Source of the DNA: Fictibacillus arsenicus
GTDB taxonomy: Bacteria; Bacillota; Bacilli; Bacillales; Fictibacillaceae
Reading direction: 5' to 3'
DNA length: 64,000 bases
Assembly (NCBI RefSeq): GCF_001642935.1
Contig: NZ_CP016761.1
Coordinates: forward strand, 3,720,001-3,784,000
In this document: positions 3,698 through 55,932 of the stretch, one piece after another
Position numbering within the stretch: the stretch's first letter is position 1
How the letters are laid out: each line of letters begins with the position of its first letter
The notes under the pieces: model-generated
The model's input: the letters and a program-made list of their open reading frames with translations, nothing else
What the model was told of the DNA's origin: nothing
Database searches by the model: none
Translations under genes and position numbers: made by a program

Positions 3698-3770
3698 AAT
3701 CGCACGTTATTTTATAAAATCACACGTTAGCAACCTGGAATCGCACATTAAAATGAAAAATCGCACGTTA
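3698..3770. repeat. Periodic array A: four AATCGCACGTTA-type words, 20–21 bp apart
   Basis: Unit starts are 3698, 3718, 3739 and 3759, giving spacings of 20, 21 and 20. The units are AATCGCACGTTA, AATCACACGTTA, AATCGCACATTA and AATCGCACGTTA. Spacer sequence is AT-rich and not conserved. The array lies between the riboswitch terminator and the terminator of the leftward lipoprotein gene. Confidence 0.85.
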
Positions 3771-3834
3771 ATTAAGAGATACACGATTTTTGACACTAGG
3801 TTTCATTACCGGCAACCTCGCTCCCTCCAAAAAA

Positions 3835-3877
3835 TAAAACACCAGGTCCTCTCTGGAAGGTAGAGGCCTGGTCCGTT
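3835..3877 (-). terminator. Terminator of the acidic lipoprotein gene
   Basis: ACCAGG, CTCT and their complements form a long stem directly after the leftward stop codon, with a T-rich tail in both directions, so it is probably bidirectional. Confidence 0.75.
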
Positions 3878-3885
3878 TTTATATC

Positions 3886-4089
3886 TTATTCAGCTGACTC
3901 CTCAGTTGATTCCTCATCTGTTGTAGTTTCTTCAGTAGAACCTTCTTCTGTTGATGTTTCCTCGTCTTGGGTTTCAGTTTCTTCCGTATTTGTTTCTTCT
4001 TCCGTGTTGTCTTCCTGATTGTTACATGCAGTGATTAACATAATTGCCAAAAGAGATGCTCCGATTTTCGCCATAAACGTTTTGCTCAT
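3886..4089 (-). CDS. Small acidic lipoprotein
   Basis: A 67-residue protein. The start ATG at 4089 has an AAGGGAG ribosome site 10 nt upstream; a longer open frame to 4167 lacks one. It has a signal peptide with a lipobox ending ITAC, so the Cys would be lipidated and anchored to the outer face of the membrane. Everything after that is a disordered Glu/Thr/Ser/Asp tail (repeats of TEE and STEE). Family and function are not recognised. It is a single-gene unit with its own terminator, next to the leftward alpha-glucan locus. Confidence 0.75.
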   Translation of the reverse strand: MSKTFMAKIGASLLAIMLITACNNQEDNTEEETNTEETETQDEETSTEEGSTEETTTDEESTEESAE

Positions 4090-4259
4090 CTTAAATTGCT
4101 CCCTTCGGATTTTCATTATGATTTGCATGAGTACGGGATTTCTTTGTCCCTGCTCAGAATATATCACGAAAAAAAACCGAAAAGACGGAATTTACCAAGT
4201 CATAACGGAGACTTTACACTTTCTGTATAATGTTAATATTTGCTTTACAAATGTTCTTA

Positions 4260-5555
4260 TCATTCACTTTTTAATAGCTGATCCATTCTTGCGGCTGCAT
4301 CATCTAAAGTTGTCTCAATGTCCTGTTCATGAAAAATAATAGCTTCCATCGCTTTCGTATAAATATTTTCCATACGGGACCAGCTTTTTACTGGCGGACG
4401 CAGACGGGCGTTTTCCAGCCCTTCCACATACGCCTTCATATAAGGCGTTTTTAACATCGCTGAAGAATTAGCAGCTTCTTTATTGGCAGGGAGGATACCC
4501 GAATTAAACATGCGCAGCTGTATGTCTTTACTTGTCATCCAGTTCATAAACGTCCATGAAGCGTCTTTATGTTCTGTCCCTTTCATGATCACGAGGTTTT
4601 CACCCCCAAGTATTGATCCTTTTCCTTGCTGATCTACCGGAAAAGGAGCAGGAATCGTTACGTTCATGAGTTGTTCCACAGTGTAATAAGAAGTGGATAG
4701 CACACTGTAAAACCATGGTCCATCTTCCGCCATAAACGCCTGTCCCTGAAGGATCGAGTTCCATGTATCAACCGATCCAGCTGTAAAGTTTGGCGCAAAC
4801 AGTCCTTTTTCTTTCCAGCCTTTTATCGTTTTTATCGCCTGAATACTTTCTTCGCTGTTAAAATATCCAGTTGCTTCCGTATAATCACCGTTTGTTAACA
4901 TGCCGCCAAGTCCCCAGAAGAAAGGAAGGCTATCCCACCCATTCACTCCTTTCATCCCAATATATGCTTTTCCCTGTTTTTTTTCAGCAAGCTTTAAGAA
5001 ATCCTCCATTGTTTCAGGAGGCTTCTCAAAACCTGCTCTGCGAAGGGATAATTTGTTGTATATCGCTGCTTTGGTGGTGATATTAACGGGAAGTCCGTAG
5101 TATAGTCCGTTGTAAAAATTGGTTTGGAGTGCATTTGCATATAATGTTTTTTTCTTGTGATTAAAACCCGTAAAATGATCCAGAGGTTCGAGCAACCCCA
5201 GGGAAGCGAATTCCGGAACCCAGGCAATATCAATCCTTACTACATCCGGGGCTTGTCCTGAGGATCCTTTTGATATAAGAGCGGATTTTAAATGCTCATT
5301 GTATGGCTGCCTGACGGATGTAATTTTTATGTTCGGGTACTTTTTTTGAAAAAGCGGCAGCAGATCTTCCTCGAACACCCTCGTCTCTTCATCACTGTAT
5401 GTGTGCCAAAAGACAAGCTCTTCTACTTTCTCTTTTTTATCGAGAGCAGGAACGGTGTCTTTGTTATTAATAATCTGATCAGAGCAGCCGTTTAGAAGTA
5501 AAGCTAAACAAAAAAACAAAAGCATTTTGTAACCATACCTTTTTTGTTTAACCAT
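4260..5555 (-). CDS. Sugar ABC transporter substrate-binding lipoprotein (paralogue 2)
   Basis: A 431-residue family 1 extracellular solute-binding protein (MalE-like). The chosen ATG at 5555 has AGGAGG 5 nt upstream; the longer frame would overlap the response-regulator gene. The lipobox LLNGC is followed by the conserved opening VFWHTYSDEE and later DIAWVPEF. It is a clear paralogue of the binding protein at 12665–13942, sharing EYWHTYSD/VFWHTYSD and IIWVPEF/IAWVPEF segments. It is the last gene of the leftward dextran-type locus, directly behind the two-component pair. It could supply the permeases with a second ligand or act as the ligand sensor for the kinase (inference). Confidence 0.85.
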   Translation of the reverse strand: MVKQKRYGYKMLLFFCLALLLNGCSDQIINNKDTVPALDKKEKVEELVFWHTYSDEETRVFEEDLLPLFQKKYPNIKITSVRQPYNEHLKSALISKGSSGQAPDVVRIDIAWVPEFASLGLLEPLDHFTGFNHKKKTLYANALQTNFYNGLYYGLPVNITTKAAIYNKLSLRRAGFEKPPETMEDFLKLAEKKQGKAYIGMKGVNGWDSLPFFWGLGGMLTNGDYTEATGYFNSEESIQAIKTIKGWKEKGLFAPNFTAGSVDTWNSILQGQAFMAEDGPWFYSVLSTSYYTVEQLMNVTIPAPFPVDQQGKGSILGGENLVIMKGTEHKDASWTFMNWMTSKDIQLRMFNSGILPANKEAANSSAMLKTPYMKAYVEGLENARLRPPVKSWSRMENIYTKAMEAIIFHEQDIETTLDDAAARMDQLLKSE

Positions 5556-5577
5556 ACGTAACCTCCTCTGCTCTGTT

Positions 5578-7119
5578 TTATTGGTGCGCTTTTTCCCGAA
5601 ACTCAACTGGACTGAAACCTGTAAGCTTTTTAAAGAGTTTGCTGAAATACTTTACATCATTAAATCCGGATTTGTGTGCGACCTCATATACTTTTAATGA
5701 AGTATTGGCCAGCAGGTCTTCTGCCTTTTTAATCCGCAATGAGATGACATAATCGATGAAGTTTTGATCCATGTATTTTTTGAATAATAGACTGAAATAA
5801 TTTTTGCTTATATAACTGTAGTCCGCCATTTTTTGCAGGGTTAGATCGGATGTGTAATTTTGCTTGATATAATGCAATGCTTTTTCCATAAGATGCTGAT
5901 GGGAGGTCAAGGAATCAAATGATACAGGGTGTTCTACGTCCCATTGTGCGATTGTCGCATAAAGGAGCGCTTTAAGCTCTTCCACTGTTTCTGTATGAGT
6001 GAGCTCATCCATTTTCTGCAGAAGAATCGGAATATCTACTTTCCTTTGAAAAAGGATGCTTAACATCTGACCCGCTTCACGTTTTACTCTATCAGGTGCC
6101 GCCGACCTTTTTTCCCATTCAGCGATCCATTCTTCTTTTATAAGCTCTATTTTTACGCTATCACTTTCACCGACAGCTTCTTTCAACGAAGTTTGATAAC
6201 CGTTAGTCTTACTCTCTTCCTCTAAAAAGTCAGCAGCATACGGATAGCATTCATTTGAAACGTCATAAAAATGATGATCACACGCTTCTTTCGCCTGATA
6301 AAAACACGTATTAAACTGAGTGGCCTCTTCCCCTGTCTGGTAACCAAAAAGCAGGGTGATGCCCGTTTCCCCTTCGAGCTTGTTTTTTACATGATGCAGA
6401 CCGTTCTCTAATTCCTTCTCATGAGGCAGAACTAGAACAACGTCAGAATTATAAAGAGAAAACATCGTACCTGTATCAAAAAATCTGTAAAAGACATCGA
6501 CCACTTCTTCTGCTTTAATCCCAGCAAAAAGATATCCGTATTTTTCTGCAAGCTCTTTTCTTTTATGAATTCTTCCATATGCGATGACAAAGCCTTTTTG
6601 AAACACGGAGTTCCATTTCACGGGATCTGGCCGATGTTCATTTGTAGCCAGCGTCAGCTTCAGTTCCTGTTCCAATTCTTTTCGGTGAAGCCCTTTTTGG
6701 GTCTCTCTATGCTCATGAAGATCATGCTGAATCTTTTGTTCCTGCTCAATAAGCAGTGCGCATTTTTCAATCAACTGAAGCAGATCTTCCGGCTCTAATG
6801 TTGGTTTTAGCAAGTAATCAACCGCACCAAGCTTGAGACCTTCTCTTACATAATTAAAATCGCTGTAGCTGCTGATGAAAATGATCTTTAGGGAAGGATG
6901 GATGTCTAACGCAAGTCTGGCCAGCTCTAATCCGTCCATTACTGGCATCTTAATATCTGTGATCAGGATATCAGGACATTGCTTCTTAAAAAATCCGAGC
7001 GCTTCTTTCCCGTTTGCAAAAGCACCTGTTAGTTCGTACTTGCCGTCATCGAGCGGTATCGATGCTTTTAATCCATAACGAATAACAGGCTCATCATCCA
7101 CAATCATGACTTTATACAT
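5578..7119 (-). CDS. YesN-type response regulator with AraC DNA-binding domain
   Basis: A 513-residue transcriptional regulator. The N-terminal receiver domain has the DD pair in VMIVDDEPVIR, the phospho-acceptor Asp in ITDIKMP and the KP motif in YLLKPT. A poorly conserved middle region follows. The C-terminus is an AraC/XylS double helix-turn-helix ending FNDVKYFSKLFKKLTGFSP. The ATG at 7119 is 8 nt from AAGGAAGG and overlaps the end of the kinase gene, so the two are translationally coupled. Regulators of this type usually control the neighbouring sugar transporter; here that would be the locus up to 13942. Confidence 0.9.
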   Translation of the reverse strand: MYKVMIVDDEPVIRYGLKASIPLDDGKYELTGAFANGKEALGFFKKQCPDILITDIKMPVMDGLELARLALDIHPSLKIIFISSYSDFNYVREGLKLGAVDYLLKPTLEPEDLLQLIEKCALLIEQEQKIQHDLHEHRETQKGLHRKELEQELKLTLATNEHRPDPVKWNSVFQKGFVIAYGRIHKRKELAEKYGYLFAGIKAEEVVDVFYRFFDTGTMFSLYNSDVVLVLPHEKELENGLHHVKNKLEGETGITLLFGYQTGEEATQFNTCFYQAKEACDHHFYDVSNECYPYAADFLEEESKTNGYQTSLKEAVGESDSVKIELIKEEWIAEWEKRSAAPDRVKREAGQMLSILFQRKVDIPILLQKMDELTHTETVEELKALLYATIAQWDVEHPVSFDSLTSHQHLMEKALHYIKQNYTSDLTLQKMADYSYISKNYFSLLFKKYMDQNFIDYVISLRIKKAEDLLANTSLKVYEVAHKSGFNDVKYFSKLFKKLTGFSPVEFREKAHQ

Positions 7120-8917: not shown

Positions 8918-8957
8918 CTTTCCAGCCCCTCATTTGTAAGACTATCAATTTATGATT

Positions 8958-18061: not shown

Positions 18062-18077
18062 AGCCGTTTATCTAAAC

Positions 18078-18180
18078 CTTATCTTTCAGAATGATATCAT
18101 TCTGCAGGAATTAGCACCTTTCATAAAAATGATGGTTGCTGGACGTCATAGGGCCTGTCCCTCAGTCTCTCTGGATAAGT
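18078..18180 (-). ncRNA. SAM-I riboswitch (S-box)
   Basis: On the minus strand: CTTATCCAGAGAG, then GACTGAGGGAC, GGCCCTATGACGTCC, AGCAACC and GGTGCTAATTCC, closing with GATAAG that pairs with the opening CTTATC (P1). This is the full S-box order. SAM binding should favour the terminator at 18033–18061 and shut off metNIQ. Confidence 0.95.
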
Positions 18181-18203
18181 TATTCTTTTATTTTACTTTT
18201 TTT

Positions 18204-27096: not shown

Positions 27097-27275
27097 GGAG
27101 TATTCCTCCTGTAATTGTAATCTGGACACAAAATGTCTCATCGGTCATATCGACAGATTTTTACATTTCTTAATAAGATTCTGCGAAAAATGACGGATTC
27201 CTTTTTAAAATGAGGAATTTGTACCAGAAGATTGATAGCGGTCGTTTTGTCGAAAAGCCTATAAATGAAAAATTT

Positions 27276-27350
27276 TTGAAGGCTCATAAATCTAATTGAA
27301 GGACCATAAAAAATTTTGAAGGCTTATAAATTCAACTGAAGGATCATAAC
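27276..27350. repeat. Periodic array B: four TTGAAGGcTcATAAA words, exactly 20 bp apart
   Basis: Unit starts are 27276, 27296, 27316 and 27336. The units are TTGAAGGCTCATAAA, TTGAAGGACCATAAA, TTGAAGGCTTATAAA and CTGAAGGATCATAAC. A weaker unit (GAAAAGCCTATAAA) precedes them. The array lies between flhO and the mbl terminator. Confidence 0.85.
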
Positions 27351-27415
27351 TCTTCAGATATTAAAATAAATAGGTTGCTTGGCACTCGCCAAGCTTCTTC
27401 ACTAACCTAAAAACC

Positions 27416-27443
27416 AAAAATGCCACCCAACTTGGGCGGCATT
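27416..27443 (-). terminator. Terminator of mbl
   Basis: AATGCCaCCCAA and TTGGGcGGCATT arms with a T run on the minus strand, 8 bp beyond the mbl stop. Confidence 0.85.
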
Positions 27444-27450
27444 TTCCTCA

Positions 27451-28646: not shown

Positions 28647-28913
28647 TTATTGAACAACTTCCTCTGTGCCTTTTTTGTATTTCACGCGCGTCGCTTCCCC
28701 ACCCCGCAAGTGGCGGATGGACTTGTGGTATTCGAGGATTTCTTTTACGTTATTTGCAAGATCCGGATTAATTTCAGGCAGTCGCTCGGTGAGGTCTTTA
28801 TGCACCGTGCTTTTGGAAACCCCGAATTCTTTTGCGATCATGCGGACTGTTTTTCTTGTCTCCACGATATACCGTCCTATCTTGATGGTTCGCTCTTTGA
28901 TGTAATCGTGCAC
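28647..28913 (-). CDS. spoIIID: Sporulation transcription factor SpoIIID
   Basis: An 88-residue DNA-binding protein acting in the mother cell, where it switches genes of the sigma-E and sigma-K programmes. The helix-turn-helix is MIAKEFGVSKSTVHKDLTE (residues 25–43), with a basic C-terminal region HLRGGEATRVKYKK. The GTG start (HDYIKER) is 8 nt from GGAGG, as in B. subtilis. In that species, translation depends on a short upstream frame (usd); short frames are also present upstream here. Confidence 0.97.
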   Translation of the reverse strand: MHDYIKERTIKIGRYIVETRKTVRMIAKEFGVSKSTVHKDLTERLPEINPDLANNVKEILEYHKSIRHLRGGEATRVKYKKGTEEVVQ

Positions 28914-29001
28914 ACCACTCGCCTCCCTAAAATGGATGTGAGAGATGCGATAGAGACTTCTATGAACAAGCTACGTGACAAGTTCTGTTGTCATCTTCGG
29001 C

Positions 29002-29043
29002 TTATAAGTATTGCTTCCATTCCCCTTTTTCCACCGCAGCCAT
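29002..29043 (-). other. 13-codon leader-type open frame upstream of spoIIID
   Basis: ATG…TAA encoding MAAVEKGEWKQYL, about 90 nt before the spoIIID start. It could correspond to an upstream-ORF control like usd in B. subtilis, but no sequence match could be tested and its own ribosome site is poor. Confidence 0.25.
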
Positions 29044-29277
29044 AGTACGATTTCTCACCGCTCACCCTCAATTTGAATTATTGTAGGTTTTGTAACATCT
29101 TATTAACCAAGTTTTCGTTATATGCCTAAATCTCAACTGGGACAAGGGGAAATGTCCATTTTTGTGAAAAAACCTCCATAAACAGGTGAAAAATCTATTG
29201 GTGAAAGGAAGCCTGTCTGAGGAAATTGGTGGGGATTTTAAGATTTACGGTACGTGTTCTTTTTTCTGTTACACGTT

Positions 29278-29385
29278 CGCTCAAGCTGACCTAATTTTCG
29301 CTCAAAATCCCCGATCTACGCTCAGAATCTTCACGCTACGCTCAAATCTCCTGTACGACCGCTCAAGAATCCTCTGGTACGCTCA
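29278..29385. repeat. Periodic array C: six CGCTCA words, 20–21 bp apart
   Basis: CGCTCA starts at 29278, 29299, 29319, 29339, 29360 and 29380 (spacings 21, 20, 20, 21, 20), usually followed by A and preceded by TA/TT. The remaining 14 bp of each period vary. The array lies between spoIIID and the spoIIQ terminator. This is the longest array in the window. Confidence 0.9.
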
Positions 29386-29436
29386 AACATCTTCAAATCG
29401 TCCATTTTGCCCTGCAAAATCTTCATTATTTCTTTT

Positions 29437-29475
29437 AAAAAACGAAAAGCTGCCCCGATATTCTCGAGACAGCTT
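29437..29475 (-). terminator. Terminator of spoIIQ
   Basis: AAGCTGtCtCGA and TCGgGgCAGCTT arms with a T-rich tail on the minus strand. Confidence 0.75.
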
Positions 29476-29486
29476 CTTTTTTTAAA

Positions 29487-32524: not shown

Positions 32525-34204
<1,680 letters not shown>

Positions 34205-34350
34205 TCAATCCCCTTTGCTTTATGTAATTTTTTTGAAGCCAGTGGATTCATGTTACCATTATTTATTTTATTTTCAAACTATTTAAAAAATTTTGATTAT
34301 AATTCACCAGTTGAAAGCTTGTTTTCATAAAAACAGGTAATTAGACACAT

Positions 34351-34384
34351 AAAAAAAGAAGCGTTTCATAAGGAAACACTTCTT
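34351..34384 (-). terminator. Terminator-like hairpin upstream of the protease gene
   Basis: AAGAAGTGTTTC and GAAACGCTTCTT arms with a seven-T run on the minus strand. It stands beyond array D, as a second stop signal behind the small membrane-protein gene. Confidence 0.75.
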
Positions 34385-34447
34385 TAGAGAGGAGATATAA
34401 AGTAAAACTGGGACAAGAGAAAAGGCTTTGCATGCAGATAGTTGTTA

Positions 34448-34501
34448 ACCGTACAAAAAATCGACTTAACCGAACAAAAAAGCAGGGTCACCGAACAAAA
34501 A
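34448..34501. repeat. Periodic array D: three ACCGaACAAAAAA words, 21 bp apart
   Basis: Unit starts are 34448 (ACCGTACAAAAAA), 34469 (ACCGAACAAAAAA) and 34490 (ACCGAACAAAAAA). It is located between two leftward terminators. Confidence 0.8.
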
Positions 34502-34533
34502 ATAATTTTCGCTCCTACTACTGTATTGACATC

Positions 34534-34560
34534 AAAAAAAAGCCAGCCATCATGGCCGGC
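34534..34560 (-). terminator. Terminator of the small membrane-protein gene
   Basis: GCCGGCCAT and ATGGCTGGC arms followed by an eight-T run on the minus strand. Confidence 0.9.
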
Positions 34561-34571
34561 TTTTTCTTCAG

Positions 34572-34718
34572 CTATTTCATTTTTCTGCCTTTAAAGAAGT
34601 TCAATAGGAAGACGATCACAGCGATGACGAGAAGAATATGGATGATTCCGCCTGCGACGTCGAAAAGAAAACCTAGCAGCCATAATACTAATAAAATTGC
34701 GGCTATTGTCCAAAGCAT
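34572..34718 (-). CDS. 48-residue membrane protein, lmo0937 family
   Basis: A very hydrophobic protein with two closely packed helices (about residues 2–20 and 24–43), a GG turn (DVAGGIIHI) and a basic end FFKGRKMK. It matches the small family known from Listeria lmo0937. ATG 8 nt after AAAGGATG. The Listeria gene is reported to be under sigma-B, and a sigma-B-like promoter is visible upstream here, so a general stress role is plausible. Confidence 0.85.
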   Translation of the reverse strand: MLWTIAAILLVLWLLGFLFDVAGGIIHILLVIAVIVFLLNFFKGRKMK

Positions 34719-34763
34719 GAGTTCGACATCCTTTCAAATTGTATTCTTGCAACTAGTTATAGA

Positions 34764-34789
34764 TTTCCCGAACCATCGTTGTTATAAAC
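34764..34789 (-). promoter_or_regulatory. Candidate sigma-B promoter
   Basis: GTTTAT (34784–34789), 14-bp spacer, GGGAAA (34764–34769), compared with GTTTAA-N12-15-GGGTAT. It matches 5 of 6 and 4 of 6 positions and is placed 46 bp before the small membrane-protein start. Confidence 0.45.
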
Positions 34790-34869
34790 GCTTTTACAAT
34801 AAAAATGAAAGGCTCTTTTCTAAAAAAGAATGTTGCTACAGAGTGATCTTAAGAAATGCTTCATTGAAA

Positions 34870-34996
34870 GTTAATTGGAGCGAAAGGGCGAGACTCCTGC
34901 AGGATGAGTGGGACAGGTGAGACCATTCAATGACGCAAAGCGTCGAATGAGCTCACCGCACACCCTGCGGAAAGCGAGTCCTGCAGCGGAAATTAG
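34870..34996 (+). repeat. Bacillaceae palindromic element, copy 1
   Basis: About 127 bp bounded by GTTAATT and AATTAGC, with internal GGAGCG, GAGACTCCTGCAGG, GGTGAG/CTCACC arms, a GACGC-AAA-GCGTC hairpin and CCCTGCGGAAAGCGAG. It belongs to the same family as the copies at 44283, 44463 and 50097. Intergenic, between the small membrane-protein gene and murA. Confidence 0.85.
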
Positions 34997-35031
34997 CCTC
35001 TATCAAAAGCAACAAAGTTTAGCCAAATGAA

Positions 35032-35056
35032 AAGAACCCTCTCATCGAGGGTTCTT
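35032..35056 (-). terminator. Terminator of murA
   Basis: AAGAACCCTC and GAGGGTTCTT arms with a short T-rich tail, 12 bp beyond the stop codon. Confidence 0.8.
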
Positions 35057-35068
35057 GGATTAAAAATA

Positions 35069-37153: not shown

Positions 37154-37261
37154 TCCCCAGCACATCCTCTCTATTTCTCATTGTTGCCAAAGAGAGAAAG
37201 GATATCCGTGGAACTTGTAGTCATATTCCGACAATTCCGTTAATGGAATTGTAACTCGGAA

Positions 37262-37495
37262 TTAACCAAATAATTGACTAAGATTGGTGGAATACTGTAG
37301 ATACTTCAAAAAGAAATCACTGGCTAGACTTGCAAGACTGATGACCATTAAAATGTAGAGCACTCTAGCCTGCATAACTTTGCCTTTTTTGATCCATTTG
37401 TCAAAGTGAATCGCCTGCATTGCCCACCAAGCAATAACAAGAAATAATAAATGTACGATTATATGTAATAAAGCCTGTTGTCCTACTGGAATCAT
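37262..37495 (-). CDS. ywzB: YwzB family membrane protein (DUF1146)
   Basis: A 77-residue protein with two membrane helices (about 9–28 and 45–65). The conserved loop WWAMQAIHFDKWIKKGKVMQAR lies between them. This small family is regularly found between the respiratory operons and murA in Bacilli. Function unknown; an association with the membrane energy complexes is suggested only by its position. Confidence 0.88.
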   Translation of the reverse strand: MIPVGQQALLHIIVHLLFLVIAWWAMQAIHFDKWIKKGKVMQARVLYILMVISLASLASDFFLKYLQYSTNLSQLFG

Positions 37496-37819
37496 AATTC
37501 AACTTACCCCCTATTACATATTTCGACAACTTTAAGCATAATTCTTTCTTCTCATTAAAAAAAGATACTTTATCCCTACTTTTGCCTTATGAAAGCCCTT
37601 ACTTTTCAAGTGTTCAAAAAGTTGTAACGATTATTTAATTTTAAAATTTTACTTCCTCATATATAGTCGTATAAAAATGGTACAGGTTACGGTAGTTTCG
37701 GCTCATTTTTGAATCATTTTCATATAAGAAAAGTGCCGTTCCTTTTGAGGGAAACATCTTGTTTGATAGTCCGTACTGGGCGCACAGATAAATCGCTAAA
37801 AAACTGCACAACTCAGAAT

Positions 37820-37910
37820 TCCTGGCTTAATTCAAATAATCCCACGTTAATTGGATTTTTCCCACGCTTAGCTCAATTAATTCCACGTTAAATGAAAAAT
37901 AACCACAAGT
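37820..37910. repeat. Periodic array E: TCCCACGTTA-type words, 20–21 bp apart
   Basis: Unit starts are 37820 (TCCTGGCTTA, weak), 37840 (TCCCACGTTA), 37860 (TCCCACGCTTA), 37881 (TTCCACGTTA) and 37901 (AACCACAAGT, then CGAC). Spacings are 20, 20, 21 and 20. The rest of the 37496–38006 gap shows no gene. Confidence 0.85.
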
Positions 37911-37960
37911 CGACAAACTCAGGTTTAAACACTGCTAAACATCAATCCACCGGCTGCAAT

Positions 37961-38000
37961 AAAAAAAGCCCGCTAAGGTTAACAAGCAACCTTAACGAGC
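37961..38000 (-). terminator. Terminator of the nuo operon
   Basis: A long stem with AACCTTA/TAAGGTT core and GC-rich base, followed by TTTTTTT on the minus strand, 7 bp after the nuoN stop. Confidence 0.9.
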
Positions 38001-38006
38001 TGATGG

Positions 38007-39542
38007 TTAATGATCATGCGTATGAGTATCAACCGCTTCGATATTCATGAAAAACTCATTAATATCGAAGTTTCCGTAAAAGAAATCCAGTGCGAGATCT
38101 GGCATTACACCAAGGATGACCGTCGATACCGCGCAAAATGCGAGTACCGCTGCCAAGCCGGATGGCACTGCAACCTTCGCCCCTTCACCATCCCGGAAAA
38201 ACATAACCGCGATGACATTAAAGTAGTACACATATGAGACTAGCGTGGTTGCCATCATGACGGCTGCGAGCCAATAATGAGCCGGCTCCAGGCCAAGCGC
38301 TCCCATAAAGATTCCGAACTTCCCGACGAATCCAGCGGTGATTGGTATCCCTGCCAGTGATAAAAGAAAGAACGTCATCGGTACAGCTAGCCACGGTGAT
38401 CGTTTAAACAATCCGCGGAAAATACTAATGTCGTTTGATTTTTCCTGAGCGGTTAAAACTTGAATTATGGTAAAGGCACCGATATTCATAAACAAGTAAG
38501 CCAAAAGATAAAACCAGATTAGTTCAAATAAAAGCGACGAATTTGATACAAATGGAACGAGGATATAACCAGCTTGGGCAATGGACGAGTAGGCGAACAT
38601 CCGCTTAATATTTCTCTGTCTCAGTGCCGTTACGTTCCCGATGATCATTGTAGCAGCTGCCAGAATCATGACATAAGGCTGAACTTCCAGCAGCAATGAT
38701 TCACTATCGATTCCAGGAGCTGCGATAAAAGTAATGATGATAAAACGCAGCAAGATCACAAATCCTGCTGTTTTTGAAACAACGCTTAAAAATGCTGTGA
38801 CCGGAACTGGTGCTCCTTCGTACACATCTGGCGCCCACATGTGAAGAGGTGCTGCTGCAATTTTAAACGTAAGTCCCGCAAACGTGATAAGGAATGCAAA
38901 CATCAATAGAAATCCGTGCTTCAATAATTCTGGGTCCTGCATATTTTGAGCGATCAAGAACAGGTTCGTTTCACCTGTCAGACCGAAAACATAACTCATT
39001 CCGAACAAGGTGATCGCCGTTGCAATTCCGCCAGAAACCACATATTTAAACGCTGACTCATTGCTCCGTTTATTGCGTCTTTCAAGCCCTGCCATGATAT
39101 AAGAAGCAAGAGAGAGAAGCTCAAGACCGACGAACAAGGTGATTAAGTCTGCGCTTGAAGCCATCATCATTGCCCCTAATAGAGCAGACAGCAGCAAATA
39201 ATAGAATTCTCCGCGGTTCTCTTCAATGTCTTCCTTCTTGTAGCTTGCTGCTAAAACCAAGACCAGAAGCGTTCCAAGCAAAAGCAAAATCTTGAATGCT
39301 TTTGAAAAAGAATCGAGTCTGTACGTATCATAGAGAATGGACGTTACTTCTGTATCCAGCTGCATGAAGATCGCAGCAAGTGCACCAAGCACCCCTGCCC
39401 CGGCAAGCCATGCTAAAGGTTTGCGGCTGGATTCTTTTTTCATAAAAAGGTCGATCACAGAAAGCAGCGTCGCAACACCAAGTATGATAAATTCGGGAGC
39501 CATGACGCTCCATTTAAAGGATAATAACGTATCTAGATCCAT
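38007..39542 (-). CDS. nuoN: NADH-quinone oxidoreductase subunit N
   Basis: A 511-residue antiporter-like proton-channel subunit with about 14 helices. The family Glu is in LFVGLELLSLASYIM, and the Lys-bearing FKIAAAPLHMWAPDVYEGAPVPV is conserved. It is the last gene of the operon, 3 bp after nuoM and directly before the terminator. The C-terminus is His/Asp-rich (DTHTHDH). Confidence 0.95.
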   Translation of the reverse strand: MDLDTLLSFKWSVMAPEFIILGVATLLSVIDLFMKKESSRKPLAWLAGAGVLGALAAIFMQLDTEVTSILYDTYRLDSFSKAFKILLLLGTLLVLVLAASYKKEDIEENRGEFYYLLLSALLGAMMMASSADLITLFVGLELLSLASYIMAGLERRNKRSNESAFKYVVSGGIATAITLFGMSYVFGLTGETNLFLIAQNMQDPELLKHGFLLMFAFLITFAGLTFKIAAAPLHMWAPDVYEGAPVPVTAFLSVVSKTAGFVILLRFIIITFIAAPGIDSESLLLEVQPYVMILAAATMIIGNVTALRQRNIKRMFAYSSIAQAGYILVPFVSNSSLLFELIWFYLLAYLFMNIGAFTIIQVLTAQEKSNDISIFRGLFKRSPWLAVPMTFFLLSLAGIPITAGFVGKFGIFMGALGLEPAHYWLAAVMMATTLVSYVYYFNVIAVMFFRDGEGAKVAVPSGLAAVLAFCAVSTVILGVMPDLALDFFYGNFDINEFFMNIEAVDTHTHDH

Positions 39543-46731: not shown

Positions 46732-46734
46732 TCT

Positions 46735-47997
46735 CTACACCTCCACGTCATGCGGTTCGTAATCTTTTCTGAGCGGATGACCTACCCAGTCATCCGGAAG
46801 CATGATGCGTGTTAAATTTGGATGACCTTCAAATTGGATTCCTAAAAGATCATACGTTTCACGCTCAGGCCAGTTTGCGCCTGCCCATAACGGGGTAATA
46901 GAGTGGGTAACTGCACTATTTCTGTCTATTTTTACTTTTAATGCAACGGACTGGCGATTTACAAACGAATATAAATGGTTATAAACTTCAAAATGGGTTT
47001 CAAAATCTGTCCCATGCATTTCAGACAGATAATCAAAACGAAGCTGATCGTTGTGTTTTAAAAACTCAGCGATTTTGTAATAGGTATCGGGTTTCGCGAC
47101 TAATGTCGGCACGTCTTTTGAGAGTCTGTTAATATAAGCATCTTCTAAAACATCTTCTCCTAAGTGCTCTTTGATGACTTTTATGTAGGTATCGAGGATC
47201 GGCTGGTTTGGAGATGGTTTCTCTTCTTCTGCTGGTTCTGATGCAGCTCCTTTTGCGTTAGCTGCGGCACGCGCTTTTGCAGCGGCTGCGGCCTTTGCTT
47301 TCGCGGCAGCGATGGCTTTCGCCTTTTCATTGTCCCCTGCTGGAGCATCTCCGCCCGCTTCTCTTGCTGCTTTTGCTTTCGCGGCTGCAGCTGCTTTTGC
47401 TTTTGCAGCGGCGGCAGCCTTTGCTTTTGCTGCTGCTTTCGCTTTTTCGTCGTCGGGTGCTAGTTCTGATGCTGCATCTCCGCCTGTTTCTCTTGCTAGT
47501 TTTGCCTTCGCGGCAGCGGCTGATTTCGCTTTCGCAGCTGCAGCGGCCTTTGCTTTTGCTGCTGCTTTCGCCTTTTCATCATCCCCCGCTGGCTCAGTTG
47601 ATTCAGTGGAAGCTTGGGCTTTTTCAGCCTGACGCTGCTTCGCAAGCTCAAGCGCTTTTGCCTTCGCTTCTGCAGCAGCTTTCTTTTTCAGCTCTTCTTT
47701 TGTTAATTCAGGTTCTGCCGCTGGTTCAGGCGCTTCTGCCGCTTTCGCTTTTTCAGCCTGACGCTGTTTTGCGAGTTCTAGTGCTTTTGCCTTCGCTTCA
47801 GCTGCAGCCTTCTTTTTCAGCTCTTCTTTTGTTAATTCTGGTTCTGCAGCGGGTTCTGATGCTTCCGCCGCTTTCGCCTTTTCCGCCTGACGCTGTTTTG
47901 CAAGCTCATGTGCCTTTGCCTTTGCCTCTGCGGCTGCTTTCTTCTTTTGCTCTTCTATTGATAATCCTTCATTTGATTCACCATGCTCTTTTGTCAT
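46735..47997 (-). CDS. nuoC: NADH-quinone oxidoreductase subunit C with a long Ala/Lys-rich extension
   Basis: A 420-residue protein. The 30-kDa complex I domain occupies only the last ~150 residues ([17 protein letters not shown]…, [28 protein letters not shown]). The first ~265 residues are repeats. About 37-residue blocks of [33 protein letters not shown] occur two to three times, followed by three blocks of [20 protein letters not shown], separated by short Gly/Asp linkers. Typical NuoC proteins are about 150–230 residues. The extension should form long charged helices. It overlaps nuoB by 4 nt. Confidence 0.95.
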
Positions 47998-48874: not shown

Positions 48875-48913
48875 TCTGACTACCCCCATAAAAACTCAGA
48901 ATTTTTCAAATTG

Positions 48914-48927
48914 TGTAACCGCTTTAA
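48914..48927. promoter_or_regulatory. cre-like site at the nuo promoter
   Basis: TGTAACCGCTTTAA matches cre at 13 of 14 positions and overlaps the -10 edge and start region of the nuo promoter. Confidence 0.45.
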
Positions 48928-48955
48928 TTATAACAAATTCCATTTTTTGTGTCGA
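48927..48955 (-). promoter_or_regulatory. Sigma-A promoter of the nuo operon
   Basis: TCGACA (48950–48955), 17-bp spacer, TATAAT (48927–48932) with an extended -10 TG (TGTTATAAT). Confidence 0.8.
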
Positions 48956-49102
48956 TGATGCCTTTTTGTCTTACCTACCTGTACTAAATAAATGTTCTAT
49001 CCTTATTTTTCTATAGAAAAGTTCATAATCCTGTAAATTTTTTGATGTGAATCATAGAAAGATAGCAGTATGATAGAAGTGTAAAGAGGAGGTAGATAGA
49101 TT

Positions 49103-49300
49103 ATGGATTTTTGGTGGATTGCTTATTTTTTAATTGTTGTCATTTCAATCGCTGGGTTAGTAGGAACGATTTTGATCTCCAGGACTCAGGATGAAAAATA
49201 CGGAAGTTCAACAAAACAAAATCTCTTTCGTTTAACTGCGATTTACGCTGTGCTGATTCTTGTCTCATTAATAGCACTCGCGCTTTACGTTTTCATTTAA
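49103..49300 (+). CDS. Two-helix membrane protein, unknown
   Basis: A 65-residue protein with two hydrophobic helices (about 3–26 and 43–64) and a short polar loop (SRTQDEKYGSSTKQNLFR). The start ATG follows AGAGGAGGTAG. It is divergent from nuoA and 32 bp ahead of the YbgA-like gene, probably in one unit. Not recognised. Confidence 0.65.
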   Translation: MDFWWIAYFLIVVISIAGLVGTILISRTQDEKYGSSTKQNLFRLTAIYAVLILVSLIALALYVFI

Positions 49301-49332
49301 TAAAATGCCTAAAAAGAGGATGTGATCTCTAC

Positions 49333-49722
49333 TTGAAAAAAGAGACCGAACTGCTTTGGGCTAGTGAAAAGTATTCTGTAATGGCCAAGGGCTATAATTT
49401 TTATAAAGATATTCAGGGTAAAATGAGAGAAGCACGATCTGCAGAAGATTATTATGAAATTCAACGTTTGATCGCCGATTATAAACAAAAACCTTACGAT
49501 AAAAAAGCACTTATCAATACATTGGAACACGTCTGGGGTTATTTTAAAAAAGAGGCTGAAGAAAACGATAAAAAGCACTTTTTTTCTTTATTAAATGAAC
49601 TGAAAGAGTTAGAAGTAGTTGAGATGGATGACATTCCATATGAGATGAAGCTATTTTTGCATTATCTGCTGCAAAAATACCCGTCTGACTTCTTAAATCA
49701 ATCTACTTTTATAAAAAAGTGA
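49333..49722 (+). CDS. YbgA-like protein (DUF1722)
   Basis: A 129-residue protein of the DUF1722 family. LLWASEKYSVMAKGYNFYKDI and NTLEHVWGYFKKEAEENDKKHF correspond to the family's HKYxVMA and HxxGYFK motifs, and FLHYLLQKYPSDFLNQ to its end. The start is TTG at 49333, with a rather distant AGAGG ribosome site. In other bacteria the domain stands alone or joined to DUF523, sometimes beside photolyase. Function unknown. Confidence 0.75.
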   Translation: MKKETELLWASEKYSVMAKGYNFYKDIQGKMREARSAEDYYEIQRLIADYKQKPYDKKALINTLEHVWGYFKKEAEENDKKHFFSLLNELKELEVVEMDDIPYEMKLFLHYLLQKYPSDFLNQSTFIKK

Positions 49723-49758
49723 GGATGCTGCCCAACGTTATCGGCTGCATCCTTTTGT
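49723..49758 (+). terminator. Terminator of the YbgA-like gene
   Basis: GGATGC and GCATCC arms with a T-rich tail directly after the stop. Confidence 0.75.
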
Positions 49759-49835
49759 TTTGTTTAGAAATAGGGAAAGTTTCGGCGGCCGAAACTGTTC
49801 ATGATCTATACCTTAGGAGGTATTCGGACATATAA

Positions 49836-49926
49836 TCCCACGTTAAATCGGATAATCCCACATTAAATTGATTTTTTCTCACGTTAATTGAAATAATCCC
49901 ACGTTATTTTGAAAATAACCACGAGT
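49836..49926. repeat. Periodic array F: five TCCCACGTTA-type words, 20–21 bp apart
   Basis: Unit starts are 49836 (TCCCACGTTA), 49856 (TCCCACATTA), 49877 (TCTCACGTTA), 49897 (TCCCACGTTA) and 49917 (AACCACGAGT, then CGAT). Spacings are 20, 21, 20 and 20. The word and the ending unit are nearly those of array E, 12 kb away. Confidence 0.9.
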
Positions 49927-50043
49927 CGATACACCGCGACAAATTTCGCAAACTGCATACCCCACTACCTAAACGCCCTACAAACAAAAAAGCTACCCCG
50001 CACCAAAAGAGGGCACTGAAAAACCGGTTGAACAGAAAAAAGA

Positions 50044-50080
50044 ATCAAACCACCTGATAAGAGCTGGTTTGATCCTTTTT
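50044..50080. terminator. Bidirectional terminator beyond glpD
   Basis: ATCAAACCA and TGGTTTGAT arms with T runs on both strands. The palindromic element copy 3 lies between it and the glpD stop. Confidence 0.8.
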
Positions 50081-50096
50081 TTGCATACAAACATGT

Positions 50097-50228
50097 AAGG
50101 ATTGTAGCGGAAGGGTACTGACTCCTGCGGGACGAGTGGGACTGGTGAGACCCCTAAAGGCGCGTAGCGGCAGGGGGCTCACCGCCCGCCCCGCGGAAAG
50201 CATGTACCCTGGAGCGGAGATCCCCGCA
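50097..50228 (+). repeat. Bacillaceae palindromic element, copy 3
   Basis: About 130 bp with TAGCGGAAGGGTACTGACTCC, CTGCGGGACGAGTGGGA, GGTGAG/CTCACC arms, a CCCCT/AGGGG hairpin and CCCCGCGGAAAGCATG, ending GGAGCGGAGAT. It lies in the 3' untranslated region of glpD. Confidence 0.85.
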
Positions 50229-50288
50229 TTCAACATTTTATTTAGAGACTTTTTCAGTGCCCTCCACCTAAACGGGATAGCTCTCATT

Positions 50289-51953: not shown

Positions 51954-52064
51954 TTTCCTCTCACTCCTTCTGTTAGAACCGCCGGACACGTAATGCTATG
52001 GGTAGTTTTCCCGTAAATTTGCTAAGCAACACCCAGATTTTACGTTTGGTGCGCTCTAATTACG

Positions 52065-52125
52065 CAAAAAAAGACCACAAGAACCCCGCAACTGTTTACG
52101 AGGTTTTGTGGTCTCTCCTGATCTC
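52065..52125 (-). promoter_or_regulatory. GlpP-type antiterminator leader of glpD
   Basis: AGACCACAA and TTGTGGTCT arms (52072–52080, 52106–52114) with inner AACC/GGTT pairing and a seven-T run form a terminator ahead of glpD. The upstream GGAGATCAGGAGAG resembles the segment before the glpF terminator. In B. subtilis GlpP with glycerol-3-phosphate prevents termination at this position. Confidence 0.8.
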
Positions 52126-52184
52126 CAACCGGTTCAATATCAACTTGTTTTCAGTATAGCTTAAGTTTTAAATTTTTTAAAGGG

Positions 52185-53720
<1,536 letters not shown>

Positions 53721-54551
53721 TTAGTTTTCAATTTTATTTCCGTGCGGTATCGCGTGTGTGCCTTTTTTCCCTAACATGAACGTTATTGCCAAAACTCCTG
53801 CACATACAGCTGTCCAGATCCAAAATAGCGATGTTACTTTACCAGTGAAAACAGCTTGATAAAACAATGCTCCGAATATTCCTCCAAGAACTGGCCCTAC
53901 AACCGGAATCCATGAATATGTCCAGTTTGACCCGCCTTTTCCTGGAATCGGCAAGATTGCGTGTGCAATTCTTGGTCCTAAGTCACGGGCTGGGTTGATC
54001 GCGTAACCAGTAGTACCACCAAGTGATAAACCGATTGCGACGATCAGGAATCCGACGATCAGCGGATTAAGTCCTTCTGAAAATTTATTCGCTCCGATCG
54101 ATAATAATCCTACCAGCAAAACAGCTGTTCCGATAAATTCTGAGAGCAAGTTCGAAAAAGTGTGCGGGATCGCCGGGTCAGTTGAGAATACTCCGAGCTT
54201 AACCGCTTTATCGTCAGTTGCTTTCCAGTGCGGCAGGAAGTGGAAGTATACAACGATTCCACCAAGCATTCCTCCGATTACTTGAGCGATAATGTACATC
54301 GGCACATCGCTCCAAGCAAATTCACCGATTGCAGCAAGTCCGAGCGTAACAGCGGGATTGATGTGTGCACCGCTAAAACCTCCGACAGCGTAAACCGCTA
54401 CTGATACTGCAAGTCCCCAAGCTAATGCAACAACAATCCAACCGCCGCCTTGTGCCTTGGATTTATTTAAGGAAACGTTTGCAACAACGCCACCTCCAAA
54501 AATAATGAGGATCATAGTACCGATTAATTCTCCCATAAATGTAGACATCAT
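53721..54551 (-). CDS. glpF: Glycerol uptake facilitator GlpF
   Basis: A 276-residue aquaglyceroporin with six helices. Both NPA boxes are present: SGAHINPAVTLG and GYAINPARDLGPR, the second with the Asp that marks glycerol channels. The first ATG at 54551 has AAAGGAGG 5 nt upstream. First gene of glpFK, controlled by the GlpP leader. Confidence 0.96.
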   Translation of the reverse strand: MMSTFMGELIGTMILIIFGGGVVANVSLNKSKAQGGGWIVVALAWGLAVSVAVYAVGGFSGAHINPAVTLGLAAIGEFAWSDVPMYIIAQVIGGMLGGIVVYFHFLPHWKATDDKAVKLGVFSTDPAIPHTFSNLLSEFIGTAVLLVGLLSIGANKFSEGLNPLIVGFLIVAIGLSLGGTTGYAINPARDLGPRIAHAILPIPGKGGSNWTYSWIPVVGPVLGGIFGALFYQAVFTGKVTSLFWIWTAVCAGVLAITFMLGKKGTHAIPHGNKIEN

Positions 54552-54621
54552 TTTTTCCTCCTTTGTGCTAAACTGACAAGATAATTTTTATGATAGCTTT
54601 TTGAACCGTGAAGAAAGCAAA

Positions 54622-54659
54622 CAAAAAAAGACCCAGCAAAAGATACCTATAGTTTTGCT
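54622..54659 (-). promoter_or_regulatory. GlpP-dependent terminator in the glpFK leader
   Basis: AGCAAAA and TTTTGCT arms with a T run lie between the promoter and glpF. The leader contains ACGGAGAACATGGAGATCCAC upstream, similar to the glpD leader. Confidence 0.8.
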
Positions 54660-54715
54660 ATAAGTTACCCCTTGTGGATCTCCATGTTCTCCGTCACGTG
54701 TATGAACTTGTCTCT

Positions 54716-54743
54716 ATTATAGCAAGGATGTAAACGTTGTCAA
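54716..54743 (-). promoter_or_regulatory. Sigma-A promoter of glpFK with overlapping cre
   Basis: TTGACA (54738–54743), 16-bp spacer, TATAAT (54716–54721). The cre-like TGACAACGTTTACA (54729–54742, minus) covers the -35 and spacer, so catabolite repression at the promoter is expected as in B. subtilis. Confidence 0.8.
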
Positions 54744-54762
54744 ACGTTATTCAGGAAAAATA

Positions 54763-55308
54763 TTAGATCCACAATTCTGGATTAGAGGTCGTTACTGCTT
54801 CCGCACCTGCCTCAAGCGCCTGCATGACATTTTCTTTTGTACGAATAAGTCCGCCAGCAATTATTGGTATTTGCGCTTGTAGTCTTACTTCTTTAATTAT
54901 TTCCGGCATGATGCCCGGCAAAACCTCTAAATAGTCTGGCTGAGCACGTTCGATTACTTTATAACTCGTTTCTAGAGCTAGTGAATCTAATAAAAATAAA
55001 CGCTGCACAGCAATCATGTTCCTTTTTTTTGCCCGGATGATGCAGTTTGAGCGTGTCGATATAATCCCAGCCAGCTTCATTTCCTGAGCTAAAAAATCCA
55101 CGGCGTATTCGTTCGCTTTCAGGCCATTGATCAGATCAAGATGAACAAGAACTTTTTTATTTCGCTCGTTCGCCATGGAAATCATAAATTTCAGCTGACT
55201 GATATGCGTATCTAAACAAACGATGTATGTATATTTGCTTTTTAGCAGTTTCTCAAAATCTTTCATTTTTCTGGCAGCGGGTAAAACCTTTTGACCGTGA
55301 AAGCTCAT
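54763..55308 (-). CDS. glpP: Glycerol operon antiterminator GlpP
   Basis: A 181-residue RNA-binding antiterminator with a TIM-barrel-like fold. Diagnostic segments are VLVHLDLINGLKANEYAVDFL, GIISTRSNCIIRAKK and IPIIAGGLIRTKENVMQALEAGAEAVTTSNPELW. With glycerol-3-phosphate it lets transcription pass the leader terminators of glpFK and glpD. ATG at 55308, 8 nt after AGGAG. It ends just ahead of the glpFK promoter. Confidence 0.94.
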   Translation of the reverse strand: MSFHGQKVLPAARKMKDFEKLLKSKYTYIVCLDTHISQLKFMISMANERNKKVLVHLDLINGLKANEYAVDFLAQEMKLAGIISTRSNCIIRAKKRNMIAVQRLFLLDSLALETSYKVIERAQPDYLEVLPGIMPEIIKEVRLQAQIPIIAGGLIRTKENVMQALEAGAEAVTTSNPELWI

Positions 55309-55467
55309 CGTGCACACTCCTCTTACCTTTTATCATTTTCAAAAAGCAGCTATTTTATCGGGATGCTGAGCCCTTTTTTATATTCTGTGATAATAACACA
55401 TACCAACTGCCCTGGACGAGCATTTAATGTGGTATGGCTGTTCTGTTCCATGATAAGGAGTGATAAA

Positions 55468-55647
55468 GTGGAGAAGAAAAAATTAGCTAAACCTATATCA
55501 CCTTTTGTACGTTTCCCCAACCCTTTTGGAGACGAAGTGGCAGAACTTCATGAAAAAATAGAAGCTTCAGCGGCAGCTGATGAAAATGGCGAACAGATTT
55601 GGTTAACACAACGAAACGATTTACCGCCGATTTTCGGAAGATCTTGA
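55468..55647 (+). CDS. 59-residue conserved-looking small protein, unknown
   Basis: GTG start 6 nt after AAGGAG; soluble, no membrane segment. The N-terminus is basic and Pro/Phe-rich (KPISPFVRFPNPFGDEVAEL), the middle acidic, and the end QRNDLPPIFGRS. It is followed by its own terminator. Placed between glpP (divergent) and the atp operon (convergent). Not recognised. Confidence 0.6.
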   Translation: MEKKKLAKPISPFVRFPNPFGDEVAELHEKIEASAAADENGEQIWLTQRNDLPPIFGRS

Positions 55648-55711
55648 CTTCTATCCCTCAAAATAGTATTTCTTCATTTCAACCTCCCTCAATAATGAAA
55701 TGAACGTGATG

Positions 55712-55755
55712 AATATCCCTTCTGACCCATGTTTAGAAGGGATATTTTATTTTCA
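55712..55755 (+). terminator. Terminator of the 59-residue protein gene
   Basis: AATATCCCTTCT and AGAAGGGATATT form a 12-bp stem with a T-rich tail. Confidence 0.9.
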
Positions 55756-55837
55756 AACTAATAAACCATGGTTTAGGCACAGTTTTGGAACCGAATCGGT
55801 TAAATCAGGGTACCATAAGGGGTATTAAGAAGATTAA

Positions 55838-55932
55838 TTCCTGAAATATTGGATATAATTCCTGAAATTTTGCTGTTAATCCCGCGAGTTTTTGCCATAT
55901 TCCCGCGAATTTTAGGTGTATATCCGCGAGTC
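55838..55932. repeat. Periodic array G: TTCCTGAAAT then TTCCCGCGAGT words, 20–21 bp apart
   Basis: Aligned third positions fall at 55842, 55863, 55883, 55904 and 55925 (spacings 21, 20, 21, 21). The first two units read TTCCTGAAAT, the next three ATCCCGCGAGT, TTCCCGCGAAT and ATCCGCGAGT. The last is followed by CGATAAAACTCGAC. Two word types in one array show that words can change while the spacing is kept. Confidence 0.82.

Follow-up and report, generated by a model that had tools for sequence, protein, structure and literature searches.

Intergenic arrays of exchangeable words on a 20–21-bp period past gene ends in Fictibacillus arsenicus and related bacteria

A 64-kb stretch of the Fictibacillus arsenicus chromosome (positions 3,720,001–3,784,000 of the single-contig 4,055,461-bp genome, here G000; the window) contains seven intergenic arrays in which a short word is repeated in one direction every 20 or 21 bp. 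Arrays of this kind recur across the chromosome, lie mostly past the 3' ends of genes and operons, and are frequently joined to palindromic caps. Their words are constrained relative to the spacers, change in concert within an array, differ between species and, within G000, are linked to the spacing. With close to an even chance of being right, the arrays can be read as tandem sites recognised by DNA-binding proteins that act cooperatively, are sequence-specific and evolve rapidly in specificity.

Periodicity and abundance

All seven arrays listed by a first-pass annotation of the window are located where it placed them. The best self-match lag is 20, 21, 40 or 41 at each of them, and the word spacings are 20 or 21 bp, with one of 22. 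The chromosome was sampled over 464 kb, comprising the window and twenty 20-kb stretches spread over the chromosome, with genes called by a codon-usage script that may misplace some gene ends. The annotation had made the reality of the element hinge on an autocorrelation at lag 20–21 above that of shuffled DNA, and a strong peak is present genome-wide and also in relatives. In 82 kb of noncoding G000 DNA, lags 20 and 21 have 91 and 92 identical 7-mer pairs, respectively, versus 6.8 and 6.4 in shuffled DNA, with harmonics at 40–42 and 60–63; coding DNA of the sample exhibits a 3-bp pattern only, with no peak at lag 20 or 21.

A search for word chains in 257 intergenic pieces (81 kb of the sample) identified 22 arrays at a chain score of at least 24, versus none in ten shuffles. 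At a score of at least 22 there are 26 arrays against a shuffle mean of 0.6, and at 26 or above, with another shuffle set, 19 arrays against three in ten shuffles (mean 0.3). Control lag windows of 15–18, 23–26, 27–30, 31–34 and 35–38 bp contain no array scoring at least 24, and the 11–14 window contains three. Four of the seven window arrays belong to the 22; those at 34448, 37820 and 55838 score 22 in this measure. Extrapolation from the sample would give roughly 190 arrays per genome, a couple of hundred chromosomal copies.

Palindromic caps

Two types of palindromic cap mark array ends. Cap B is a 34-bp inverted repeat, AACGTGTAAyaRATATAAGAACACGTACCGTAAA, fused to the last word, and it ends the arrays at the first 20 TTGAGCG loci read. 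Searching by ACACGTACCGTAAA alone finds cap B in 17 of the 18 Fictibacillus genomes that form the genus set for word, cap and gene searches, at 4 to 48 copies each, and the reversed control gives 0. In G000, 49 cap-B sites were examined; a chain of at least three words is present at 48 and six words at 33, a few of the three-word chains being doubtful.

Cap A is a double palindrome of ~60 bp, (G)CAGTTTCGGnnnCCGAAACTG followed after about eight bases by ATACCTnnnnGGGTAT, and some arrays begin there. The pattern CGAAACN{5,28}TACCNNNNNNGGTA has 67 matches in 16 of the 18 genomes, and its reversed control has 9. Thirty of these loci were read, of which five, including both matches in genome G001, are unrelated and were set aside, leaving true cap A in 15 genomes; a called array adjoins the cap at 22 of the remaining 25 loci and is lacking at 3. 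A sigma-B-like -10 sequence (GGGTAT) within cap A was not adopted as an explanation, the matching -35 being less conserved than the palindrome. Many cap-A arrays (for example, module L260) have units that alternate TTTATCCACGAG and CAATCCAAAAG, the former presumably near the DnaA-box consensus; TTTATCCAC words likewise resemble a DnaA box.

Word constraint and spacing

Comparisons of array copies provide evidence that the word, rather than the whole unit, is constrained. First, dispersed copies were located by cap alone, since copies found by their word would bias the measure. In nine such copies, those with <30% spacer difference, 11 of 378 word positions and 85 of 603 spacer positions differ from consensus (p=9e-10), an identity of 97% for words and 86% for spacers. 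This cut drops eight of 17 copies, and one of 40% admits other word types; across all 17 the figures are 105/698 for words and 264/1104 for spacers (p=5e-6). Second, in the orthologous array beside spoIIID in the window and in relatives G002 and G007, words are 40/42 identical in each pair, and spacers are 44/66, 41/67 and 45/66 identical, with one free gap allowed each.

Third, word type is linked to spacing within G000. Among the spacings of 30 TTGAGCG arrays, 93 are 20 bp and 53 are 21 bp (mean 20.36 bp); among those of 13 G[GC]GYG arrays, 3 are 20 bp, 49 are 21 bp and one is 22 bp (mean 20.96). The two types have cap and genome in common. The Fisher value (p=4e-14) is too small because spacings and copied arrays are not independent, but the contrast is plain. 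The annotation had further held that all words face the same side of the helix. This is correct for strict 21-bp arrays; it fails for TTGAGCG arrays, for which a helix of 10.5 bp per turn implies a calculated drift of about 110 degrees across six words, and for an array from Virgibacillus with ten words at exactly 20 bp. A purely phased structure, one of the three readings then offered, fares badly, as it would not depend on any particular word and would not be compatible with spacings of both 20.0 and 21.0 bp.

Conservation and word change

The syntenic 64-kb regions of five Fictibacillus relatives (G002, G003, G007, G014 and G016; identity of 81–93% over one gene) allow 35 comparisons for the seven window loci. 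G003 is also locus L138, and L027 and G014 are probably one genome. A corresponding array is called in 24 comparisons and the word differs in about half of these, so that of the persistence of word and period that orthologous alignment was meant to check, the array is mostly kept and the word often is not. The gaps at 37154–38006, 49723–50288 and 55648–56031 contain an array in all five relatives (weak in G003 at 49723). At 3216–3885 an array is present in G002, G014 and G007, G003 shows a chain built on an unrelated word, and G016 has none; at 28842–29486 an array is present in the same three and, by eye, in G003, with none in G016. The 27142–27450 array is present in G007, G016 and G003, as a remnant in G002, and G014 has another gene there. 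No relative has the array at 34199–35068, where G014 contains an array of another kind with cap B.

The closest Mbl relatives of the window, L026–L033 and L073, are 88 to 100% identical and all Fictibacillus. In nine other Fictibacillus loci, the gap between the SpoIIQ-like gene and spoIIID has an array with the same cap in five and none in L028, L031, L032 and L033. The word is that of the window in L026, G002 and G007; other words are TGAGCGAA at strict 21-bp spacing (L073), TGCGTGAA (L027/G014), TCTATGAGC (L029), ACCGGTGA-like (L030) and TGCGTGGAA-like (G003, as L138).

At three loci, word bases have changed in every comparable unit, with spacer orthology plain at one and less clear at two. 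At 3216–3885, the window and G014 have C[GA]CAC[GA]TTA where all four G007 units have CCCACGTTA, and G002 is mixed; orthologous spacers are 26/34 and 27/34 identical versus 29/66 and 31/66 for mismatched pairs. At 49723–50288, two word columns differ in all four units between the CCCACGTTA-type words of the window and the TCCACGGTA-type words of G002, and word and spacing shift together, from CACGTTA at 20,21,20 to CACGGTA at 21,21,21. At 37154–38006, the second word base differs between G014 and G007 in 3/3 comparable units. Permutation values for concerted change are p = 0.0006, 0.001, 0.0003, 0.005 and 0.016, from five tests that share sequences and are not independent.

These changes bear on how the arrays are made. 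A generator that copies a fixed length, another of the three early readings, would carry spacers along with words and fits poorly. An ordinary minisatellite, in which slippage or unequal exchange makes and homogenises the units and spacers merely mutate, draws support from very long arrays in Psychrobacillus (L059) and Ureibacillus (L064, L085), of 27 to 36 words each, where recurring spacing sets such as 21,21,21,19 in two of the three suggest multi-unit duplication. Slippage, however, homogenises spacers as well as words, whereas here the words alone change in concert, and a given word also appears at other, unrelated loci between unrelated spacers; this origin is thus very improbable.

Dominant words differ by species. 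Triples of TTGAGCG occur in 8 of the 18 genomes, and the reversed pattern matches up to 7 times per genome, probably since GCGAGTT is itself a real word type. CTATGAG triples occur in 6/18, and TTATTTGC triples in G001 only, with 18 matches and differing spacers; G001 is the genome without cap B, yet its lag peak is present (72 pairs at 21). GCGTGGA was considered as the dominant exact word of G003 and rejected, as its triples occur in 2/18 genomes, with one match in G003 and one in G014. The earlier description of words that differ between loci therefore needs qualification: there are several types, but the window does not hold seven unrelated words, since C[CG]CACGTTA is common to three arrays and word types are found again at many loci.

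Such species-specific intergenic words at many loci, together with nine dispersed copies whose spacers are closely similar, resemble the product of molecular drive, in which arrays would serve DNA uptake or some other sorting machinery as a species-specific dialect, spread by preferential uptake. Against this, a single genome holds several words, many arrays are old orthologues and not fresh insertions, and, to our knowledge, the uptake words of other bacteria are not arrayed at two turns. Molecular drive is accordingly an improbable source.

Genomic position and orientation

The element is mostly located past the 3' ends of genes and operons. Arrays scoring at least 24 occur in 10 of 165 tandem gaps, 5 of 23 convergent gaps, 1 of 53 divergent gaps and 5 of 15 edge pieces, and are thus rare between divergent genes. 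The upstream gene runs towards the array at 38 of the 48 cap-B sites with a called upstream gene, 21 cap-B sites lie between convergent genes, and, of 37 arrays measured, 29 begin no more than 133 bp from the stop codon. Cap-B elements are co-oriented with replication in 39 of 49 cases, with the terminus assumed at 2.0 Mb. Replication polarity was rejected as the cause: of the 10 exceptions, 8 are oriented with the upstream gene, and gene direction therefore explains orientation better. Cap-B sites are scarce at 1.5–2.9 Mb, around the presumed terminus (4/49).

An intrinsic terminator, by a script criterion, follows 21 of 37 upstream genes, compared with 53/86 other tandem and 7/14 other convergent genes. 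This method, with other genes as control, replaced a stricter search that gave 7/36 upstream regions. Replacement of the terminator by the array is unsupported, as upstream genes have terminators about as often as others. Five array pieces taken as RNA have no fold above chance (z -0.11 to -1.60), and the only Rfam gathering-score matches in the window are two riboswitches, for S-adenosylmethionine (SAM) and cyclic di-GMP (c-di-GMP-I), neither inside an array.

It is conceivable that the element acts as RNA, with read-through or antisense transcripts carrying the words for an RNA-binding protein, a small RNA or Rho, and with the caps as a processing or end signal. The sense orientation of the words relative to the upstream gene in those 38 cap-B arrays and the short distance to the stop codon are both as expected, and the 16 of 37 upstream genes in which no terminator was called leave read-through possible. 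Yet a spacing held at 20 or 21 bp and linked to the word in G000 is what a double helix would readily impose and single-stranded RNA would not, the array seems not to take the place of a terminator, and the five pieces lack structure beyond chance. An RNA-level role is therefore unlikely, if less so than the minisatellite and molecular-drive origins.

Arrays of the window

The window arrays differ in word, strand and neighbours. On the plus strand at 3698..3770, four C[GA]CAC[GA]TTA words are spaced 20,21,20; orthologous arrays have mixed words in G002, the same words in G014 and CCCACGTTA in all four units in G007. The minus-strand array at 27276..27350 has four words at 20 bp, TTTATGgTCCTTCAA on the mbl strand, between mbl and a flagellar rod gene that is presumably flhO by synteny. 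Its word is the same or nearly so in L029 and G016 and different in L028, L073, G007 and G003; no array is called in L026 or L027, and G002 retains a remnant.

Between the M23 peptidase gene (SpoIIQ-like) and spoIIID, six [TC]TGAGCG words at 29278..29385 (minus strand) are closed, on the side away from the upstream gene, by a cap-B module, AACGTGTAAC..AACACGTACCGTAAA, at 29244..29279 (minus strand). The weakest window array, at 34448..34501 (plus strand), has three ACCGAACAAAA words spaced 21,21, and no similar array is called in the five relatives. At 37820..37910 (plus strand), about four words of CCCACGTTA type lie past a Proton_antipo_M gene (38007–39542), and relatives have CGCACATTA/CGCACGTTA (G014), CCCACGTTA (G007), TTCACGTTA at 20,20,21,20 (G016), TCCACGG at 21 (G003) and mixed CCACG/CCATG words at 21 (G002).

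Two further plus-strand arrays have cap A ahead of them. The cap at 49779..49824, two palindromes GTTTCGGcggCCGAAACTG ... ATACCTtaggAGGTAT, precedes four CCCACGTTA-type words and a degenerate fifth at 49836..49926, spaced 20,21,20 between convergent genes; the G002 array has TCCACGGTA in three units and TACAGGGTA in one, at 21,21,21. A degenerate cap A at 55780..55826 (plus strand) precedes five units at 55838..55932, two of TTCCTGAAA and then three of CCCGCGAGT type, spaced at 21 bp past the ATP synthase epsilon gene (56032–56439). Words at this locus are ATCCAGAA/ATCCACGAG/ATCCAAAAG in G002, G014 and G007, CCGCGAGT in G016 and GGCGAGTT in G003.

Other features of the window were also noted. 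The c-di-GMP-I riboswitch at 3501–3700 is followed almost directly by a short tail that resembles coding sequence and by a terminator. The gap that contains it is about 1.85 kb in G002 and G014 and 0.67 kb in the window, and the gene served by the riboswitch may therefore be deleted in the window genome. The SAM riboswitch (Rfam match) lies at 18076–18181 on the minus strand, and 129-bp repeats lie within a minus-strand gene at 47345–47965. A GC-rich dispersed repeat (like GGTTGATTTCCGCTCCAGGATGCTCGCTTTCCGCGG), present from about 50088 to at least 50200, also precedes the arrays at L116, L118, L119, L121, L126 and L128, and ahead of several TTGAGCG arrays it may be a dispersal helper.

Distribution outside Fictibacillus

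Arrays outside Fictibacillus are widespread but probably sparser than within it. Among 52 Mbl loci from other Bacillaceae- and Planococcaceae-type genera (up to 9 kb each, searched without shuffles), 17 contain arrays scoring at least 24, with other words. They are found in 11/26 loci of the Psychrobacillus-Lysinibacillus-Ureibacillus-Solibacillus group, 4/12 of the Halobacillus-Virgibacillus-Pontibacillus-Lentibacillus group, 2/7 of the Cytobacillus-Heyndrickxia group and 0/7 of the Alkalihalobacillus-Halalkalibacterium-Planococcus group. An extra 20-kb stretch was added for 20 genera or species, partly picked for arrays at the Mbl locus. Twelve of the 20 have an array of at least four words, in ten cases at the already-known Mbl locus; the added stretches alone contain an array in 2/20 (Solibacillus, weak, and Pallidibacillus), a lower share than the Mbl loci had led us to anticipate. 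No such array is called at the Mbl locus or in the added 20 kb of Heyndrickxia, Alkalihalobacillus, Anoxybacillus, Oceanobacillus, Halalkalibacterium, Thalassobacillus, Brevibacillus or Planococcus. The spacing sets of L059 and L085, such as 21,21,21,19, look like periodic phase corrections.

Putative readers and function

Binding by a family of proteins, the remaining early reading, would fit best because conservation lies in the words and not in the drifting spacers, an array's words change jointly and word type tracks spacing in G000; no binding protein was found. A reader must be word-specific, meet its copies two turns apart, have a word-linked spacing and tolerate any spacer, and a cooperative row of monomers satisfies these demands. 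The five pieces without a fold above chance support a reader that needs no RNA fold. A reader that changes between species and loci would have to be either a family of readers or one reader of loose specificity that favours uniform rows.

From these patterns we infer protein binding in a row-of-monomers mode and a role for the arrays. One monomer would bind each word of about 7–12 bp, all in one direction, and neighbours would be in contact over a distance of two helical turns, allowing four to six monomers, or more, to load cooperatively. The palindromic caps could offer a binding site for a dimer of that protein or of a partner, which would start or stop the row. Several specificities would coexist in a genome (TTGAGCG, G[GC]GYGAA, CACGTTA, TCCANRAG and others), each preferring a 20- or 21-bp ruler, and as a specificity evolves the array would adapt word by word or be replaced. 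Because arrays lie mostly past 3' ends where terminators are as frequent as elsewhere, their likely role would be to mark where transcription units end or to insulate those ends, perhaps by acting as a roadblock or by organising the chromosome.

Several observations weigh against a protein-bound row. Tests of two candidate families, RAYT and Rep_3, yielded no binding protein. Word choice is partly local, with CGCACGTTA at one G000 locus and CCCACGTTA at two others, and with mixed words in G002 at 3216–3885; one protein shifting its taste is therefore insufficient and several specificities per genome must be assumed. Strict 20-bp spacing in Virgibacillus does not hold words on one face, and the TGAGCGAA words of L073 are strictly 21 bp apart versus the G000 TTGAGCG mean of 20.4, so that the core word alone does not fix the ruler. 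Orientation that tracks the upstream gene in 38/48 cap-B cases is also predicted by an RNA-level role. Finally, spacers at 49723–50288 are 27/34 identical against 46/68 for mismatched pairs, a weak contrast, and spacer orthology at 37154–38006 rests on one comparable spacer (10/11).

The two families were considered as follows. A Y1 transposase gene, similar to the repetitive extragenic palindrome (REP)-associated tyrosine transposases (RAYT), is present at G000:C1:3685349-3685681 (L297) and has a match in 18/18 Fictibacillus genomes. No intergenic array occurs in the 7 kb around the gene in four genomes, the sole chain (L300) being inside coding sequence, and RAYT is thus a weak candidate reader. 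In the distant G001, the Y1 gene is flanked on both sides by GGTACGGTACC-like sequences. Rep_3 (PF01051), the only Rep family tested as a cognate rep gene, is present in 1/18 genomes, G000 not among them, and was rejected as reader. The ubiquity of the Y1 gene and a dispersed TTGAGCG subfamily with similar spacers could also indicate mobile-element remnants, with rows of transposase binding sites near one end, Tn7-like or REP/RAYT-like. The four Y1 loci read speak against this, as do array positions kept in 24/35 comparisons and the one array tested, for which searches of 72,556 plasmids and 50,697 phages gave no match; no coding part or oppositely oriented partner end was noticed, though not systematically searched for. 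There is little likelihood that the arrays are such remnants.

It is possible, somewhat short of an even chance, that the arrays constitute an undescribed class of chromosomal element in Bacillaceae and relatives, with an exchangeable word, a word-linked 20/21-bp ruler, frequent palindromic caps, a place at transcription-unit ends, fast-changing protein-family readers and in-place rewriting. In agreement with the first-pass annotation, a limited open-access literature search found no description of it, which does not show its absence from print. If so, word, ruler and cap make up a defined grammar for a class of intergenic DNA that is abundant in Fictibacillus and has counterparts in other Bacillaceae and their relatives. 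Coherent rewriting of words at fixed loci would make protein-DNA co-evolution testable in bacteria, with natural lock variants already in databases, and the joint change from CACGTTA at 20 to CACGGTA at 21 would be a handle on reader geometry. The position of the arrays past 3' ends suggests that they help to keep transcription units apart or to organise the chromosome.

Comparison with known systems

Iteron arrays of theta plasmids (Rep/TrfA/pi type) are direct repeats about two turns apart beside an inverted repeat, with a word that varies by replicon. The present arrays are similarly same-direction direct repeats in the 17–22 bp range, here 20–21 bp, with exact phase for the 21-bp types only. 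Unlike iterons, they are chromosomal, in an estimated couple of hundred copies, and mostly past gene ends. DNA uptake sequences (DUS or USS dialects) are short, species-specific, intergenic words; here, in contrast, words are arrayed at fixed spacing and several occur per genome.

REP elements and bacterial interspersed mosaic elements (BIMEs), with RAYT, also form many dispersed, intergenic, species-specific copies, and a Y1 gene accompanies the arrays in all 18 genomes. BIME units alternate in orientation (PMC2817692). The words of G000, by contrast, are non-palindromic and run in one direction within an array, although a palindromic core (ACCGGT; CCGCGG) is contained in some words from other species. 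Clustered regularly interspaced short palindromic repeat (CRISPR) arrays likewise have like repeats, differing spacers and a conserved sequence at one end. Here, however, words of 7–12 bp are separated by spacers of roughly 8–14 bp, and words change in place while spacers stay recognisable. Minisatellites, or variable number tandem repeats, differ in that the whole unit is not homogenised here, as the higher identity of words than spacers and the concerted word change indicate. Sal-box repeats behind rRNA genes, bound by TTF-I, are tandem protein sites past a 3' end, eukaryotic and confined to one gene type. The arrays resemble them as tandem sites past the 3' end of a transcription unit, with protein sites only proposed here, and differ in occupying many loci with a variable word.

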